The notes beneath the pieces are model-generated. The model was not told the origin of the DNA, ran no database searches, and saw nothing but the letters and a program-made list of their open reading frames with translations. A DNA stretch of 64,000 nucleotides. Source: Pedobacter lusitanus (lineage in GTDB: Bacteria; Bacteroidota; Bacteroidia; Sphingobacteriales; Sphingobacteriaceae). Where the stretch lies: positions 372,001 through 436,000 of the forward strand of contig NZ_CP157278.1 of the NCBI RefSeq assembly GCF_040026395.1, written 5' to 3'. Shown piece by piece: positions 27,207 to 42,263 of the stretch. Both the position numbers and the translations under genes were made by a program. How positions within the stretch are numbered: the first letter of the stretch is position 1; each line of letters begins with the position of its first letter.

Positions 27207-27320
27207 AATCTGCGCTAAATATATATAATTTCTAATCAACCAGATGCCAGTATTGTTGCAGACTATTTGTTTATGTCATTTCTATAACAGACAGGCCATA
27301 AGAAGATAAATCAGAGTAGT

Positions 27321-27395
27321 GTCAGTGATCTATGTTGGTATAGGGTTGGTATACCCCTGGGGTATACCAACCCTATACCAACATAGATCACTGAC
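27321..27395. repeat. 75-bp perfect palindrome (37-bp arms, single-base centre)
   Basis: Every base from 27321 to 27357 pairs with its partner from 27395 down to 27359, leaving only T at 27358. Each arm contains two copies of TTGGTATA separated by GGG. It lies between the tyrS stop (27422) and the start of the metallophosphoesterase gene (27206). There is no T run at either end, so it is not a standard terminator. Confidence 0.95.
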
Positions 27396-27421
27396 TTAAC
27401 TTAAACATCTCTTCGAATTAC

Positions 27422-28624
27422 TCAGAAGGGGGTAACCTCGAAGTATCCTCTTTTTCCCATACGGATTCTGACAGGGCCGGATATTTTCAGCAAACCATAA
27501 GAATCGGTCATTTTATGATCGTTAACAGCTACACCACCACTATCAATTAATCTTTTCAAAGCAGAACGGCTTTCATCCTTACGGAGAAAGGCACATAAAT
27601 CCAGTAAATTGAGCTGATCATGGTCTCTGATCAGCTCAGCTATACTGACCACCGTGAAATTTTTCTCCTGAAATGATCTGCTCTGGAATTGTTGCGCAAA
27701 GTATTGTGCTGCATTTATGGCATCCTGTTCTGTATGGTATTGTCTGATGACATTGCCGGCAATGATCTTTTTCAGGATCATAGGATTTTCTCCGTTATTC
27801 AGTTTCTCCATCCAGTGCTGTCTGGTGGTCTGATCAAAATCTGTCACCAGCTCCAGGTATTCCGGTATAACCTCATCAGGAACAGACATCATTTTACCAA
27901 ATATCTCATTAGGCTCATCAGTCAGCCCGATAATGTTATTTAATGATTTACTCATCTTTTCTTTTCCATCAAGACCTTTGAGCAAAGGCATACACATCAC
28001 CACCTGAGGAGGGAATCCTTCAGCTTCCTGTAGTTGTCTGCCCATCGTACAATTAAATAACTGATCGGTTCCGCCCATTTCAATATCTGCCTGAATTTTT
28101 ACAGAATCAAGCCCCTGCAGAACAGGGTAGATCAGTTCATGCATCGCTATTGGTAAATTCTGCTGAAAGCGTTTGCTAAAGTCTGTTCTGTGCATAATCT
28201 GAGCAACGGTGATTTTTGACAGCAGCAGAATCGTATCAGATAAATTTAGTTTTTCAAGCCATTCAGCGTTGTAGGTTATTTCACATCTGTTGATATCCAG
28301 GATTTTGGAAAGCTGGTTCACATAGGTCTGCGCATTCAACATGATAGCCTCCCTGCTTAGCGGAGGTCTTGATTTGTTCTTTCCTGTAGGATCTCCGATT
28401 CTTGCTGTAAAGTTTCCAATGACAATGACAATACGGTGGCCCAGGTCCTGAAAAGTCTTTAGTTTTTTCAGTACTACGGCATGTCCAAGATGCAGATCAG
28501 GAGCTGTAGGGTCAAAACCGAGCTTAATGATCAGTTTGCGGTTCTCCTGTCCGGCAAGTTTAAATTTTTGTTCCAGACCATTTTCGGGCAGGATAATTTC
28601 AACATTTTCTTTAATCGTTTTCAT
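27422..28624 (-). CDS. tyrS: Tyrosyl-tRNA synthetase
   Basis: I choose the ATG at 28624 (400 residues, MKTIKENVEIILPENG). The longer frame to 28717 would run through a terminator hairpin. The class I catalytic core shows the HIGH-like motif HLGH within PTAPDLHLGHAVV, the tyrosine-site segment GGTDQLFNCTMGRQLQ and the KMSKS loop KEKMSKSLNN. An S4 RNA-binding domain forms the C-terminus (about 335-400). The enzyme charges tRNA-Tyr. The gene is preceded by a Tyr-rich leader ORF (28701-28793) and a terminator-like hairpin (28646-28678) only 22 bases before the start codon, a strong sign of attenuation. Confidence 0.96.
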   Translation of the reverse strand: MKTIKENVEIILPENGLEQKFKLAGQENRKLIIKLGFDPTAPDLHLGHAVVLKKLKTFQDLGHRIVIVIGNFTARIGDPTGKNKSRPPLSREAIMLNAQTYVNQLSKILDINRCEITYNAEWLEKLNLSDTILLLSKITVAQIMHRTDFSKRFQQNLPIAMHELIYPVLQGLDSVKIQADIEMGGTDQLFNCTMGRQLQEAEGFPPQVVMCMPLLKGLDGKEKMSKSLNNIIGLTDEPNEIFGKMMSVPDEVIPEYLELVTDFDQTTRQHWMEKLNNGENPMILKKIIAGNVIRQYHTEQDAINAAQYFAQQFQSRSFQEKNFTVVSIAELIRDHDQLNLLDLCAFLRKDESRSALKRLIDSGGVAVNDHKMTDSYGLLKISGPVRIRMGKRGYFEVTPF

Positions 28625-28645
28625 TTGATGACTGGGGTTAAAACA

Positions 28646-28678
28646 AAAAAGCCCGAATGTAATACATTCGGGCTTTTT
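28646..28678 (-). promoter_or_regulatory. Terminator hairpin of the tyrS attenuator
   Basis: On the minus strand AAAAAGCCCGAATGT (28678-28664) pairs perfectly with ACATTCGGGCTTTTT (28660-28646) around a three-base loop, and T continues to 28645. It lies after the Tyr-rich leader ORF and directly before tyrS. Part of its 5' arm (28672-28667) can instead pair with TTCGGG at 28729-28724 inside the leader ORF. The hairpin could alternatively be a plain terminator for the receptor gene ending at 28816. Confidence 0.85.
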
Positions 28679-28700
28679 CAATATTTGAGGTGTTTTTATT

Positions 28701-28793
28701 TTAAGAAACAAGCGCATATCGATCCCGAACCATTATGTAGTAATAATAGCTGTAGAAAGAATAGGATAATATGCTGATCAGTGAATTCATCAT
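28701..28793 (-). CDS. Candidate Tyr-rich leader peptide of tyrS
   Basis: This 30-codon ORF (ATG at 28793 or 28790, TAA at 28703-28701) contains seven tyrosines, six of them in the nine codons 11-19 (YSFYSYYYY). It ends 22 bases before a terminator-type hairpin and is followed by tyrosyl-tRNA synthetase. A Tyr-codon run in a short ORF ahead of a terminator is the classical layout of ribosome-mediated attenuation. Scarcity of charged tRNA-Tyr would stall the ribosome here and allow read-through into tyrS. The peptide itself probably has no other role. A promoter-like pair lies just upstream, giving a very short 5' leader. Confidence 0.75.
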   Translation of the reverse strand: MMNSLISILSYSFYSYYYYIMVRDRYALVS

Positions 28794-28806
28794 GGATGAT
28801 ATAGCG

Positions 28807-28838
28807 TAAAGGTAATTAAAATTTATAACTGTATCCAA
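28807..28838 (-). promoter_or_regulatory. Promoter of the tyrS leader
   Basis: On the minus strand TTG (28838-28836) is followed after 21 bases by TACCTTTA (28814-28807), close to the Bacteroidota consensus TTG-N17-23-TAnnTTTG with one mismatch. It overlaps the last codons of the upstream receptor gene. Predicted transcription start near 28800 is just before the leader ATG. Confidence 0.6.
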
Positions 28839-31236
28839 CTCTGAAAACCTGAGTTTCATAATAATCTGTGCTCCGCATCCGGAAGCCATTTCCGGTTATA
28901 TCCCTTTGTATATTCAGGGTATTAAACAAATCTGTTGCGTTGAAAAACAGCTCTCCTGAGCCTTTCTGTATCGTTTTTTTAATTCCCAGGTCTACGGAAT
29001 ATCTGGCTGAGATCCTGCCTTGCGGGATAAGATCAGGAGCCAGATAAAGACCTGTCAGCTGTGCCTCGATCTTGCGGGGAAGATGAAATAAGCCATTGAT
29101 TTTCAGATTTCCTGAAATCAGCTTTTGCTGCTCAGCAGTATAAATCACCGGGACGGGATACTTGTTCTCCACCTGGAAAGCATTAATGGTATTCTGATAG
29201 ATATTGGCATTGGCATTAACCGATACCCATTTGGCAAGATCCTGTTTCACAATTAATTCAATTCCTGAATTATAACTTCTTCCGGCATTCTGAAATACAT
29301 TATAAATCAATGTGCTGCCAGGTGCCTGTGTGGCTATTCTGGTTATAGTTCCATCAGTAATCCGGTGATAGAATGCTGAATACAGGTAACCTTTATTCCA
29401 GTTGTTTTTGTATCCCAGTTCTAAACTGCTGGTGAACTGCGGGCGTAAAGCAGGGTTCCCGACTTTGATGACTTCAGGTTCATCATATTTTGGAAATATC
29501 CTGATGTCTACCTCATTTGGACGGTCAACCCGTCTGTTATAAAATAAAGAGATTTTGTTTTTATCATCCAGTTTATAGGCCAGTCTTAAATTAGGAAAGG
29601 GTCTTGCATAATCATAACCTTCACTTTTATAGGTATTATGATCCGGGTTTACTTTATAATCCACTTTCACATATTCAACTCTTAATCCGGCTTCGAGTTC
29701 AAATTTATTGCTTTCATAGACGTAATTCCCGTATAAGGCCGGAATCGTTTCACTATAATCTGCCCAGCCGCCTGCGTTGACATCTATAGGAGAGTTTAAC
29801 CCCGGAAAGAACTGCATATTGACAGGAATTGTTCTTCTGCGGAATTTTAATCCGCCCTCAATTCTGCCATGTTTCAATGGACGTACATAGTCGATATTTA
29901 AATCTGCCACCTGTTCGTCTGAGAGTAATTTAAAGGAATCTTCACCGGTATAGGCGGGCATTATATTGGTGAAAAAGTATTTTTCATCTTCCCGGTGAAA
30001 GGTATAATTAAAACTCGCATTCAGCACATGTCCGGGTTGTTTAAAATTATGCTGATAAATGGCAGATGCTGCAGCTGTATATTTTACTTCATCTTCTAAA
30101 AACCGCCATAACCGGCTGCGTACAGATAAATCCTGATTAAAATAGGGAATATCTCCACGATCAGTGATCTTTTCCCTATTAAAAAGCCCGGTAACAGTTA
30201 AGGTATTCTGATCGTCGATGTTCCAGTCCAGGCCGGTTTTGGCTGTGGCAAAAGTGGTTATGCGGTTACGTTTTACCTGCTGCCTGATCGTTTCTCCAGT
30301 ATCATAAATTCTTTCGGCAAATTCGTTTCTGTTAAGTGTCTGCGTATATAACCAGTCACCCTGAAAGAAGGCATTGACTTTATTTTTGCGGTAGTTCAGC
30401 GATAACGAAGGATTGATCTTTGGTGTATTTTGGTACTGAGGACGAATACCGGGCAGGTTTTCTTTCTTTTGCCACAATGCACCCAATCCGGTACTGAGAC
30501 CAATTTTTCCGTTAAAACCTTCCTGTTTGTTTTTTTTATAGATAATATTGATAATCCCGGCATGACCATTGGCATCAAATTTTGCAGATGGATTATTAAT
30601 GATTTCAATTCTTTCGATAGCCGATGCAGGAATATTATCTAAGCCGGTCTGAGCTCCAAATCCGGTGATGGCCGTTTGTTTTCCATCAATCAGGACGGAT
30701 ACTTTATCACTGCCTCTGAGTTCCAGTTTACCATCCTGTGTGGTTGATACCCCGGGCAGGTTCTTCATGACCTGCAGGACAGATCCGCCACCCTGACTGA
30801 TATTATCTGCTACAGTAAAGGTCTTCTTGTCCATTTGATTGCTGATCCCGGCAGTCTGCTGACCTGAAATTTTAATTTCATTCAGCGTGTTGGGAGCTTC
30901 CTCGAGTTCTATGTGGCCAAGATCCAGAAAAGGGCTCAGGCTGCCGGCCAGCACAGGCAGGTAGCTGGTCTTAAAACCTATATAGGAAACACTAAGCAGA
31001 TAGGTTCCTGCATTTACTTCGGCGAGTTTGAACCGGCCTTCTGCATCACTGACTGTTCCTGCTACAAAGACGCTGTCTTTGCTTGTTTTCAGGAGTATAT
31101 TTCCAAAAGGGATAGTGGTTTTGGTTTTTGAATCCCTGATTACCCCAGAGAGGGTTACTTTGCTGTCTTGTTGTGCCGATCCCCAAAAGGGTAAAAACAG
31201 GAATAGGGCAAATAGGTATCTGGTGTGCTTCATCAT
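28816..31236 (-). CDS. TonB-dependent outer-membrane receptor with carboxypeptidase-regulatory-like domain
   Basis: I choose the ATG at 31236 (806 residues), which gives a signal peptide MMKHTRYLFALFLFLPFWGSAQ. A CarboxypepD_reg-like domain (25-110, VTLSGVIRDSKTKTTIPFGNILL) precedes a plug domain (120-230) with QVMKNLPGVSTTQDGKLELRGSDKVSVLIDGKQT and IERIEIINNPSAKFDANGHAGIINIIYKK. This pattern belongs to the outer-membrane-beta-barrel receptors common in Bacteroidota. The rest is a beta barrel ending in Phe (FRVGYSYKF). The ligand is unknown. It lies 60 bases downstream of a histidine kinase on the same strand, so its expression may depend on that two-component system. Confidence 0.9.
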   Translation of the reverse strand: MMKHTRYLFALFLFLPFWGSAQQDSKVTLSGVIRDSKTKTTIPFGNILLKTSKDSVFVAGTVSDAEGRFKLAEVNAGTYLLSVSYIGFKTSYLPVLAGSLSPFLDLGHIELEEAPNTLNEIKISGQQTAGISNQMDKKTFTVADNISQGGGSVLQVMKNLPGVSTTQDGKLELRGSDKVSVLIDGKQTAITGFGAQTGLDNIPASAIERIEIINNPSAKFDANGHAGIINIIYKKNKQEGFNGKIGLSTGLGALWQKKENLPGIRPQYQNTPKINPSLSLNYRKNKVNAFFQGDWLYTQTLNRNEFAERIYDTGETIRQQVKRNRITTFATAKTGLDWNIDDQNTLTVTGLFNREKITDRGDIPYFNQDLSVRSRLWRFLEDEVKYTAAASAIYQHNFKQPGHVLNASFNYTFHREDEKYFFTNIMPAYTGEDSFKLLSDEQVADLNIDYVRPLKHGRIEGGLKFRRRTIPVNMQFFPGLNSPIDVNAGGWADYSETIPALYGNYVYESNKFELEAGLRVEYVKVDYKVNPDHNTYKSEGYDYARPFPNLRLAYKLDDKNKISLFYNRRVDRPNEVDIRIFPKYDEPEVIKVGNPALRPQFTSSLELGYKNNWNKGYLYSAFYHRITDGTITRIATQAPGSTLIYNVFQNAGRSYNSGIELIVKQDLAKWVSVNANANIYQNTINAFQVENKYPVPVIYTAEQQKLISGNLKINGLFHLPRKIEAQLTGLYLAPDLIPQGRISARYSVDLGIKKTIQKGSGELFFNATDLFNTLNIQRDITGNGFRMRSTDYYETQVFRVGYSYKF

Positions 31237-41625: not shown

Positions 41626-41727
41626 GATTATATGATTTAAGGAATGATAAACTATGGATAGATTCAGCGTATGCTCTGGACGGAAGATTGTGCAATGAAA
41701 GCATAGTCAATCTGGAAAAAATAAAAA

Positions 41728-41826
41728 TGGGCAAGCAACCTTTATCGCACCGCTACAACCTTCTACCCTTGCTTCGTTCCCGCCCTGGGGGAGTTCAAAG
41801 GGAGCTGATCGTAAAGGACTTGCCCA
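41728..41826 (-). ncRNA. ffs: Signal recognition particle RNA, bacterial small type
   Basis: On the minus strand TGGGCAAG (41826-41819) pairs with CTTGCCCA (41735-41728) to close a rod of about 99 bases. The apical part reads CAGGGCGGGAACGAAGCAAG, matching the conserved SRP core (CAGG, GNAR-type loop, AAGCA) that binds Ffh. T-rich sequence (ATTTTTATTTTTT) follows the 3' end. A consensus promoter lies directly upstream. The RNA with Ffh targets membrane proteins to the translocon. Exact ends are estimated from the closing stem. Confidence 0.88.
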
Positions 41827-42263
41827 CTGCAAATGTAGCAAAAGAGTTTAGTCTGCAAAAACGAAATCAAGAAATATTTGATGTTTTTTATTGAAAATTT
41901 GATAATAGATTGAGATTTAGCGGATTGTAATTGAATAAAAATTCATTTTAGTTCTGTTTTTAGTTAAATAACCCTCAAAATTGGGCTGAGAAGCCAATTT
42001 TTAGCTCTTTTTTAAGCGGGAAAACGGAATAAAACCGAAGGATTTTGTGGTAATCTTCTTATTTAGGCAGGTATTTTAGTCGCTAATGAAAAATTATTCT
42101 AAATAACATGATTATTATATTTGCAATAATTAATGTTGTTTTTTGTCGATTTGATAATTTAATGTCTACCTAATTATGCTGCTATTTATTTTTCGCAAAA
42201 AAAATAGCAAAATGGCAATTATTCAGCTAATTTATTATCTTAGTGTCTCGAATACATTAAGAT
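41827..42263. other. Intergenic region between SRP RNA and gltB
   Basis: These 437 bases hold the SRP RNA promoter at the left end and the gltB leader at the right. A TATATTTG box (42116-42123) could start a gltB message with a leader of about 130 bases, but there is no TTG at the right distance. I saw no gene or conserved RNA structure in the rest. Confidence 0.5.
41830..41858 (-). promoter_or_regulatory. Promoter of the SRP RNA gene
   Basis: On the minus strand TTG (41858-41856) is followed after 18 bases by TACATTTG (41837-41830), a full match to the Bacteroidota housekeeping promoter. The predicted start falls at the first base of the SRP RNA closing stem. Confidence 0.8.

Follow-up and report, generated by a model that had tools for sequence, protein, structure and literature searches.

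The window analysed here, a stretch of 64,000 nucleotides from Pedobacter lusitanus, carries on its minus strand a gene for a tyrosyl-tRNA synthetase (TyrRS), which is preceded by a leader open reading frame (ORF) rich in Tyr codons and by a terminator hairpin, in the order that a first-pass annotation of the sequence had described. The gene is designated tyrZ here, as explained below. The features of the locus are as follows.

28836..28838, minus strand: TTG at -33 of a putative promoter, 21 nt upstream of the -7 box in the window (from the sequence).
28807..28814, minus strand: putative -7 box TACCTTTA (consensus TAnnTTTG), with a predicted transcription start near 28802 (from the sequence and its relatives).
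28701..28793, minus strand: leader ORF of 30 codons with 7 Tyr, MMNSLISILSYSFYSYYYYIMVRDRYALVS; homologous leaders lie at 91 of 94 tyrZ loci.
28737..28763, minus strand: cluster of Tyr codons (codons 11, 14 and 16-19), of which codons 17-18 correspond in the alignment to the family's conserved Tyr pair.
28764..28774, minus strand: strand 1, GCATATTATCC, the anti-antiterminator, with strand 2 as its partner (from the fold and from strand 1/2 co-evolution in 33 leaders).
28714..28730, minus strand: strand 2, GTTCGGGATCGATATGC, with strand 1 or strand 3 as its partner (from folds and helix comparison).
28678..28684, minus strand: ATATTGA, which lengthens strand 3 on its upstream side and has TCGATAT of strand 2 as its partner (from the window fold and a covarying helix of the family).
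28665..28678, minus strand: strand 3, the 5' arm of the terminator, AAAAAGCCCGAATG, whose CCCGAAT is the partner of strand 2 in the antiterminator.
28645..28659, minus strand: strand 4, which forms the 3' side of the terminator stem, followed by the T run (from the sequence, the fold and a covarying stem).
27422..28624, minus strand: tyrZ, encoding an auxiliary TyrRS of 400 aa (TIGR00234, 320 bits; HLGH and KMSKS intact in the alignment).

An 815-aa ORF on the same strand, judged by eye to encode a TonB-dependent-receptor-like protein, ends at 28816, just upstream of the leader. Directly past the tyrZ stop codon, a long near-perfect inverted repeat occupies 27319-27400; it recurs at 26 genomic places, with 52 matches counted over the two strands, and thus belongs to a dispersed palindromic repeat family. 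Elsewhere in the window, a Bacteroidales small SRP RNA (RF04183, 107 bits) lies at 41725-41832 on the minus strand.

The leader ORF has Tyr at codons 11, 14, 16-19 and 26, in agreement with the first-pass count of seven Tyr in 30 codons, six of them within codons 11-19. The binomial chance of 7 Tyr in 30 codons is 3e-4 when a background of 4.5% is assumed, and the conservation of the leader makes a chance origin of these codons untenable. The same annotation had placed strand 1 at 28774-28764, its partners GGAT and ATATGC at 28725-28722 and 28719-28714, TTCGGG of strand 2 at 28729-28724 and CCCGAA of the terminator at 28672-28667, and all of these positions are exact. Thermodynamic folding of 28792-28646 recovers both the 1:2 hairpin and the terminator as drawn there, at -38.7 kcal/mol (z = -5.4, equalled by 0 of 200 shuffles). 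The pairing of TAAT (28735-28732) with ATTA (28663-28660), which had been proposed to lengthen the antiterminator, was likewise correctly located, but the conserved extension lies on the other side of the core, where TCGATAT pairs with ATATTGA (28684-28678) in the window and AGGxTATGT with ACATAACCT in the family. The terminator stem has at least 14 bp (28678-28665 with 28659-28646) and is followed by the T run, from which only 20 nt remain to the ATG of tyrZ, leaving little space for a separate promoter.

The nearest solved structures to the window TyrZ by sequence are 6bqy and 1h3e. The gene had been called tyrS on first reading and is rather of an auxiliary, TyrZ type, since the window genome has another TyrRS, 28% identical to TyrZ and taken here as the housekeeping TyrS, and since exactly two TyrRS score over the family cut-off in 40 of 40 carrier genomes checked, the window's included. 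Among 60 genomes of the genus, the TyrZ-type gene was found in the window genome only, and the TyrRS matches of the 59 others are of the distant type only. Within the window's family, it is present in 24 of 399 genomes and 2 of 25 genera. A scan of one genome per species yielded at least 68 Bacteroidota tyrZ loci (L084-L151) and at least 12 others; the matches listed include loci from Chryseobacterium, Arenibacter, Gelidibacter, Flavobacterium, Empedobacter, Weeksella, Rufibacter, Runella, Chitinophaga, Niastella, Sphingobacterium, Tenacibaculum and others. In plasmids, TyrZ-like genes were found in 13 records, all below 60% identity and none from a Bacteroidota genus. In the genome of locus L106, an uncultured Fluviicola, the tyrZ match over the family cut-off (G854:C45:64189-65343) contains one in-frame TAA.

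The region upstream of the gene was compared at 94 loci of the tyrZ clade (L001, L032-L056 and L084-L151, among the matches listed; some lie on the same contig). A leader ORF with Tyr codons is present at 91 of them, two more are cut by contig ends (L050 and L144) and one, L054, is without it. The tyrZ-like gene at L054 (genome G439) is matched over residues 2-353 only, and a different hairpin lies upstream of it. The leader ORFs span 24-36 codons, three of the 91 with a GTG start, and the consensus of the peptide in relatives is MKxLNxILRLPFFSxYY. Tyr-Tyr is found at the aligned place in all 90 leaders identified by script, which represent 77 distinct sequences (L044 and L146, for example, are the same contig), and in 74 of 74 distinct leaders of a filtered set. 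The 91st leader, Rufibacter L119, was read by eye; it has Tyr-Cys at the position of the pair and scores 37.7 bits with the covariance model.

This covariance model (R1), run with default filters, had no match directly before the gene at 39 other tyrZ loci (27 from other classes, L057-L083, and 12 others, L152-L163; 27 checked by eye) or at 30 distant tyrS loci (L002-L031, 26-31% identity, taken as housekeeping). The best match at these outside loci scored 31.7 bits, and several matches were at gene ends. When 395 genomes of the class were searched, 320 had some match at E <=1, the best of which scored 53.3 bits besides the 100.2 bits of the window's own leader; 13 of these loci were viewed, and eight looked like plain terminators while three were other leader peptides. 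The window's own genome gave 33 matches at E <=5, with the tyrZ leader as the only strong one, and no trustworthy leader ORF was seen at the nine other matches viewed.

The RNA helices were compared in an alignment (A2) of 33 leaders, dereplicated from a hand-chosen start list and without L131, whose end had been wrongly cut. The terminator is paired in 95.7% of cells, has seven pairs changed on both sides, and reaches a covariation of 0.374 against 0.185 in shuffles, which ignore the relatedness of the sequences (0/500), and at most 0.106 in slid versions of the helix, which retain it. Measured against the same controls, the antiterminator core (strand 2:3) is 94.3% paired with a covariation of 0.331 (shuffled 0.188, 0/500; slid <=0.113), and its extension is 64.8% paired with 0.254 (shuffled 0.146, 0/500; slid <=0.098). 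The antiterminator and the terminator, which had been described as mutually exclusive on the letters of one genome, thus both covary, the former in two parts. The first-pass annotation had named the lack of the Tyr codon run or of the TTCGGG/CCCGAA pairing in related genomes as evidence against an attenuator, and had suggested aligning leaders for covarying stems and conserved Tyr codons; the relatives retain both, with compensatory changes, as the stems of the 33 leaders and the Tyr pair at 90 of 90 testify.

The helix between strands 1 and 2 was compared in the same leaders. Strand 1 pairs with its own strand 2 at a mean of -12.9 kcal/mol, against -10.74 +- 0.38 kcal/mol when the partners are permuted among the 33 leaders (0/10,000). 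In fixed columns, the 1:2 sub-helix has a modest covariation of 0.208 against 0.166 (10/500), and its pair types are not above shuffles (462/500). The pairing is weak in L034, L086, L087 and L098 (-4 to -7 kcal/mol), and in most Sphingobacterium leaders a strand 1 directly past the Tyr pair may be used instead (CCCGA with TCGGG). The spacing is nearly fixed: in 82 of 90 leaders, the first base of strand 2 falls between ATG+61 and +68, and in the remaining eight, all in or near Chryseobacterium, the helix chosen by the program starts at ATG+53 or +54.

Folding of the 33 leaders in different states gave results on both sides. When a ribosome is modelled at the Tyr pair (first Tyr codon in the A site, front edge assumed to lie 16 nt from the P site), all 33 folds have strand 3 paired with upstream sequence. 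At full length, the terminator forms in 32 of 33 and the 1:2 helix in 29 of 33. In ribosome-free RNA that ends before strand 4, 20 of the 33 leaders already pair strand 3 with upstream sequence in their lowest-energy fold, which counts against an off state set by thermodynamics alone; the off state must therefore rest on kinetics or on a ribosome over strand 2.

The promoter sequences suggest that the leader ORF begins very close to the 5' end of the transcript. Of 86 distinct upstream regions, 61 have the motif TAnnTTTG 5-9 nt ahead of the leader's start codon, and six occurrences lie at 11-60 nt; the wider TAnnTTTR has 78 occurrences at 4-10 nt and 10 at 11-60 nt, including the window's, whose box TACCTTTA is one base off TAnnTTTG. 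TTG is found 19-20 nt further upstream of the box in 55 cases (all loci, duplicates counted). In Flavobacterium psychrophilum, the -7 box is reported to span -12 to -5 relative to the start site (PMC9723704, in excerpts); a box so placed predicts a 5' untranslated region (UTR) of 1-5 nt in the relatives and of 9 nt in the window, and the tyrZ leader mRNA is probably near-leaderless. 5' UTRs this short are uncommon in Bacteroidota: the figures reported are 5.5% leaderless mRNAs in F. psychrophilum and about 3.7% with a 5' UTR below 10 nt in B. thetaiotaomicron. Several Chryseobacterium tyrZ promoters (for example at L055, L090, L108 and L114) have a palindrome like CAGGAAATTCCTG adjoining the -7 box on its upstream side, which is perhaps an operator.

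The comparison of the relatives' leaders supports the ribosome-mediated attenuator of the first-pass annotation, with stalling and termination as its predicted steps. The tyrZ leader would sense charged tRNA-Tyr and thereby control the transcription of the auxiliary TyrRS gene, a reading to which we give a probability of about 0.88. It draws on the leader ORF, its Tyr codons, the three co-varying helices, the near-fixed spacing, a descent that fits one origin and the status of tyrZ as a second copy, all of which emerge from the sequences and their comparison. Transcription is predicted to start a few nt ahead of the leader ORF, with a ribosome directly behind the RNA polymerase. When Tyr-tRNA is ample, the ribosome would pass the Tyr codons and cover strand 2, because the leader ORF reaches or crosses that strand; the strand 3:4 hairpin would then form and transcription would stop before tyrZ. 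If the leader is not translated, strand 1 would capture strand 2, and the terminator would again form and stop transcription. When Tyr-tRNA is scarce, the ribosome would be halted at the Tyr codons, where it would fill the ~30 nt between strands 1 and 2; strand 2 would be free to pair with strand 3, the terminator would be blocked and the spare TyrRS would be made. A ribosome stalled at the aligned Tyr pair of the window would sit immediately past strand 1, and the blocking of that strand would therefore depend on steric reach or on Tyr codons 11 and 14 further up.

That the codon sensed is the one for the amino acid of the enzyme encoded by the target gene counts for this model. The features by which leader-peptide attenuators are recognized, a cognate-codon ORF, a terminator, an antiterminator that excludes it and a 1:2 helix, are all found in the tyrZ leader, the last of them on the strength of the co-evolution seen under permutation and with its disruption by a stalled ribosome as a prediction of the model. 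The strong amino acid conservation of the leader peptide is unexplained by a plain attenuator.

Most leaders share the peptide ILRLPFFSxYY, in which the amino acids are conserved and not the codons. For LRLPFF, pN/pS is 0.085 in 74 sequences (88 loci, 74 distinct, excluding L001 and L104 for a low motif score as well as L119, L050, L144 and L054). In 32 diverse sequences (34 dereplicated leaders minus L001 and L104), pN/pS is 0.32 for codons 2-6, 0.11 for IL, 0.15 for RLP, 0.16 for FFS, 1.30 for codon 15, 0 for YY, 0.78 for codons 18-20 and 1.30 for codons 21-24. The FFS codons lie mostly outside the proposed helices, so RNA pairing offers no ready explanation of their conservation. The motif was not found in the leaders of the window and of Rufibacter, the two earliest branches, which retain the RNA switch. 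It is altered in L032, L034, L041, L127, L138 and L151. Counted up to where the run ends, Tyr codons number two or three in 76 of the 82 leaders with L-R-[LV]-P-[FY], six in the window, five in Rufibacter L104 and three in Rufibacter L119.

These patterns raise the possibility of a peptide-dependent arrest, in which the nascent ILRLPFFSxYY in the ribosomal tunnel sets or tunes the stall at the Tyr pair, perhaps together with a small molecule, and acts through the same RNA switch downstream. Purifying selection on the amino acids of the block before the Tyr pair (pN/pS of 0.085 to 0.16) speaks for it, as does the end of that block at the pair, a position from which it would fill the upper tunnel at the stall. 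The short Tyr run of the motif-bearing leaders, in comparison with the six codons of the window and the five of L104, is of the same tendency, but L119 has only three Tyr despite having no motif, which makes the link between motif and short run thin. Furthermore, the window and Rufibacter have the RNA switch without the motif, six leaders have altered versions of it, and strand 1 takes in codons of RLP, so that RNA pairing may account for some of the conservation. Seen as an arrest peptide, the leader shows conservation beyond the sensed codons, while the motif is missing from some members. On balance an arrest that depends on the peptide is possible and a good deal less likely than stalling by Tyr-tRNA shortage. 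The pattern hints at a role that the nascent peptide may have acquired in the derived clade. A bolder combination, to which we give nearly the same probability, is that the leader is a hybrid of starvation attenuator and arrest peptide. In the derived clade, ILRLPFFS in the upper exit tunnel would sharpen or condition the stall at the Tyr pair, and a once longer Tyr cluster could thereby have been reduced to two or three codons; the tyrZ gene and its leader together would be a mobile emergency cassette among Bacteroidota.

Readings in which the leader ribosome has no part fare worse than the attenuator. Attenuation through an RNA-binding protein or through Rho gives no role to a Tyr pair at a near-fixed distance ahead of strand 2; it is judged improbable. 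T-boxes commonly control tyrS and tyrZ in Firmicutes. A T-box is also reported for tyrZ of B. subtilis (PMC9437257, in excerpts), and such an element, or another known leader RNA family, might sense tRNA-Tyr directly. Consistent with the first-pass remark that no T-box was seen, the Rfam search, at the gathering threshold for the whole window and at E <=5 for 28600-28900, gave the leader sub-threshold matches only, none of them a T-box. The best of these was Thr_leader (28.5 of 55 bits); Leu_leader reached 23.6 of 50 and Trp_leader 14.8 of 41, and the aligned ones, Thr_leader included, rest on the terminator stem. With no T-box match at E <=5 in 28600-28900 and no family at its gathering score in the leader, direct tRNA sensing by a known RNA is very improbable. 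Equally hard to sustain is the idea that the hairpin merely terminates the TonB-dependent-receptor-like gene that ends just upstream and that the Tyr-rich ORF is accidental, which is contradicted by the conservation of the leader module: it accompanies tyrZ in carriers across the phylum and has a promoter box of its own and co-varying helices.

The descent of the gene was followed in a tree of 61 TyrZ proteins, in which the 42 leader-bearing entries form one group (99/96), with Rufibacter as the first and the window as the second branch; some outside rows have long branches, and it should be read with caution. The tree fits a single origin, the window being an early offshoot. L032, found in a genome of genus g55, groups with rows of the Flavobacteriia type (98/88), and its leader likewise resembles theirs, which fits a joint transfer of gene and leader. 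The spare gene tyrZ and its own leader have probably been passed round the phylum as a unit.

Three other candidate leaders were seen in other genomes. At L166 (G1004:C26:4840-4972, minus strand), a leader ORF MQKTNNTFYYYYPSTQPGRIMYCSF with a Tyr run is followed by a GCCCGG hairpin and a T run; the gene behind it, searched with its first 120 residues, matches PF00351 and encodes a biopterin-dependent aromatic amino acid hydroxylase, and this is probably another Tyr attenuator. At L173 (G647:C39:255731-255881, minus strand), a leader ORF MLSTAASYFTFFYFYFRSENRIGAVYRLAKN with a Phe/Tyr run and a terminator precede a DAHP synthase gene (PF00793). At L165 (G083:C42:20877-21037), a nitrite/sulfite reductase gene (PF03460) is preceded by a terminator and by a leader ORF MTKFKNTVLSHMFMMCCCNSTSGTAVFLFFNMKR that contains three Cys codons, and this may be a Cys attenuator.

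Leader-peptide attenuation requires a ribosome close behind the RNA polymerase, and a co-varying element kept with one gene clade in several families is indirect evidence of such coupling in Bacteroidota. The coupling would operate in bacteria without Shine-Dalgarno sequences in their mRNAs, and here on a transcript that is probably near-leaderless. The element also points to a spare TyrRS under emergency control, which raises the question of the natural inhibitor or stress to which this enzyme responds. Because the leader peptide is conserved, it can be tested directly whether the nascent chain, beyond the Tyr codons, sets the stall.

Several known systems resemble the tyrZ leader in part. 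In Streptomyces coelicolor, the gene for an auxiliary, indolmycin-resistant TrpRS is reportedly, from work attributed to Vecchione and Sello in 2010, under ribosome-mediated transcriptional attenuation. Both that system and tyrZ have a second aminoacyl-tRNA synthetase (aaRS) gene, a leader ORF with cognate codons and a terminator/antiterminator switch; they differ in that the present one concerns Tyr and TyrZ, belongs to another phylum, probably has a near-leaderless mRNA and has a peptide conserved in most members. The attenuators of the enterobacterial trp, his and phe operons follow a logic of strands 1-4, with regulatory codons ahead of strand 2. The tyrZ leader shares this logic and the position of the codons before strand 2, whereas its target is an auxiliary aaRS, its ORF reaches or crosses strand 2 and no Rfam leader family scores at its gathering cut-off there. 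The His-leader peptides of hisS/hisZ in bacilli, found by terminator screening (Naville and Gautheret 2010, PMC2965389, in excerpts), are also leader peptide attenuators before a duplicated aaRS gene, although in Firmicutes and for His. In B. subtilis, tyrZ is likewise a second TyrRS gene under special control, with a T box and a MarR regulator (Williams-Wagner 2015, in excerpts of PMC9437257); its RNA is a T-box, in contrast to the leader peptide of the window tyrZ.

Closer in phylogeny are the putative attenuators of Flavobacterium psychrophilum, of the same phylum, for which "strong clues" of leader peptide attenuation before amino acid biosynthesis operons and structured 5' UTRs ahead of aaRS genes are described; the genes named in the excerpts are pheA, hisG, ftsY, acsA, alaS and rimP, not tyrS or tyrZ (PMC9723704). 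The titles and abstracts listed from the open-licence literature include no description of a tyrS or tyrZ leader peptide in Bacteroidota, and the literature consulted on leader-peptide attenuation in the phylum, excerpts of PMC9723704 among it, offered hints and no worked case. The authors of the 2010 survey (PMC2965389) were aware of no demonstrated case of such attenuation beyond Proteobacteria and Actinobacteria that preceded their Firmicutes one. By analogy with these systems, the tyrZ leader would be closest in purpose to that of the Streptomyces auxiliary TrpRS gene and would work like the classical attenuators. What is new lies in its target, in being, so far as the literature was searched, a worked case for Bacteroidota, in a probable near-leaderless mRNA and in a conserved leader peptide.
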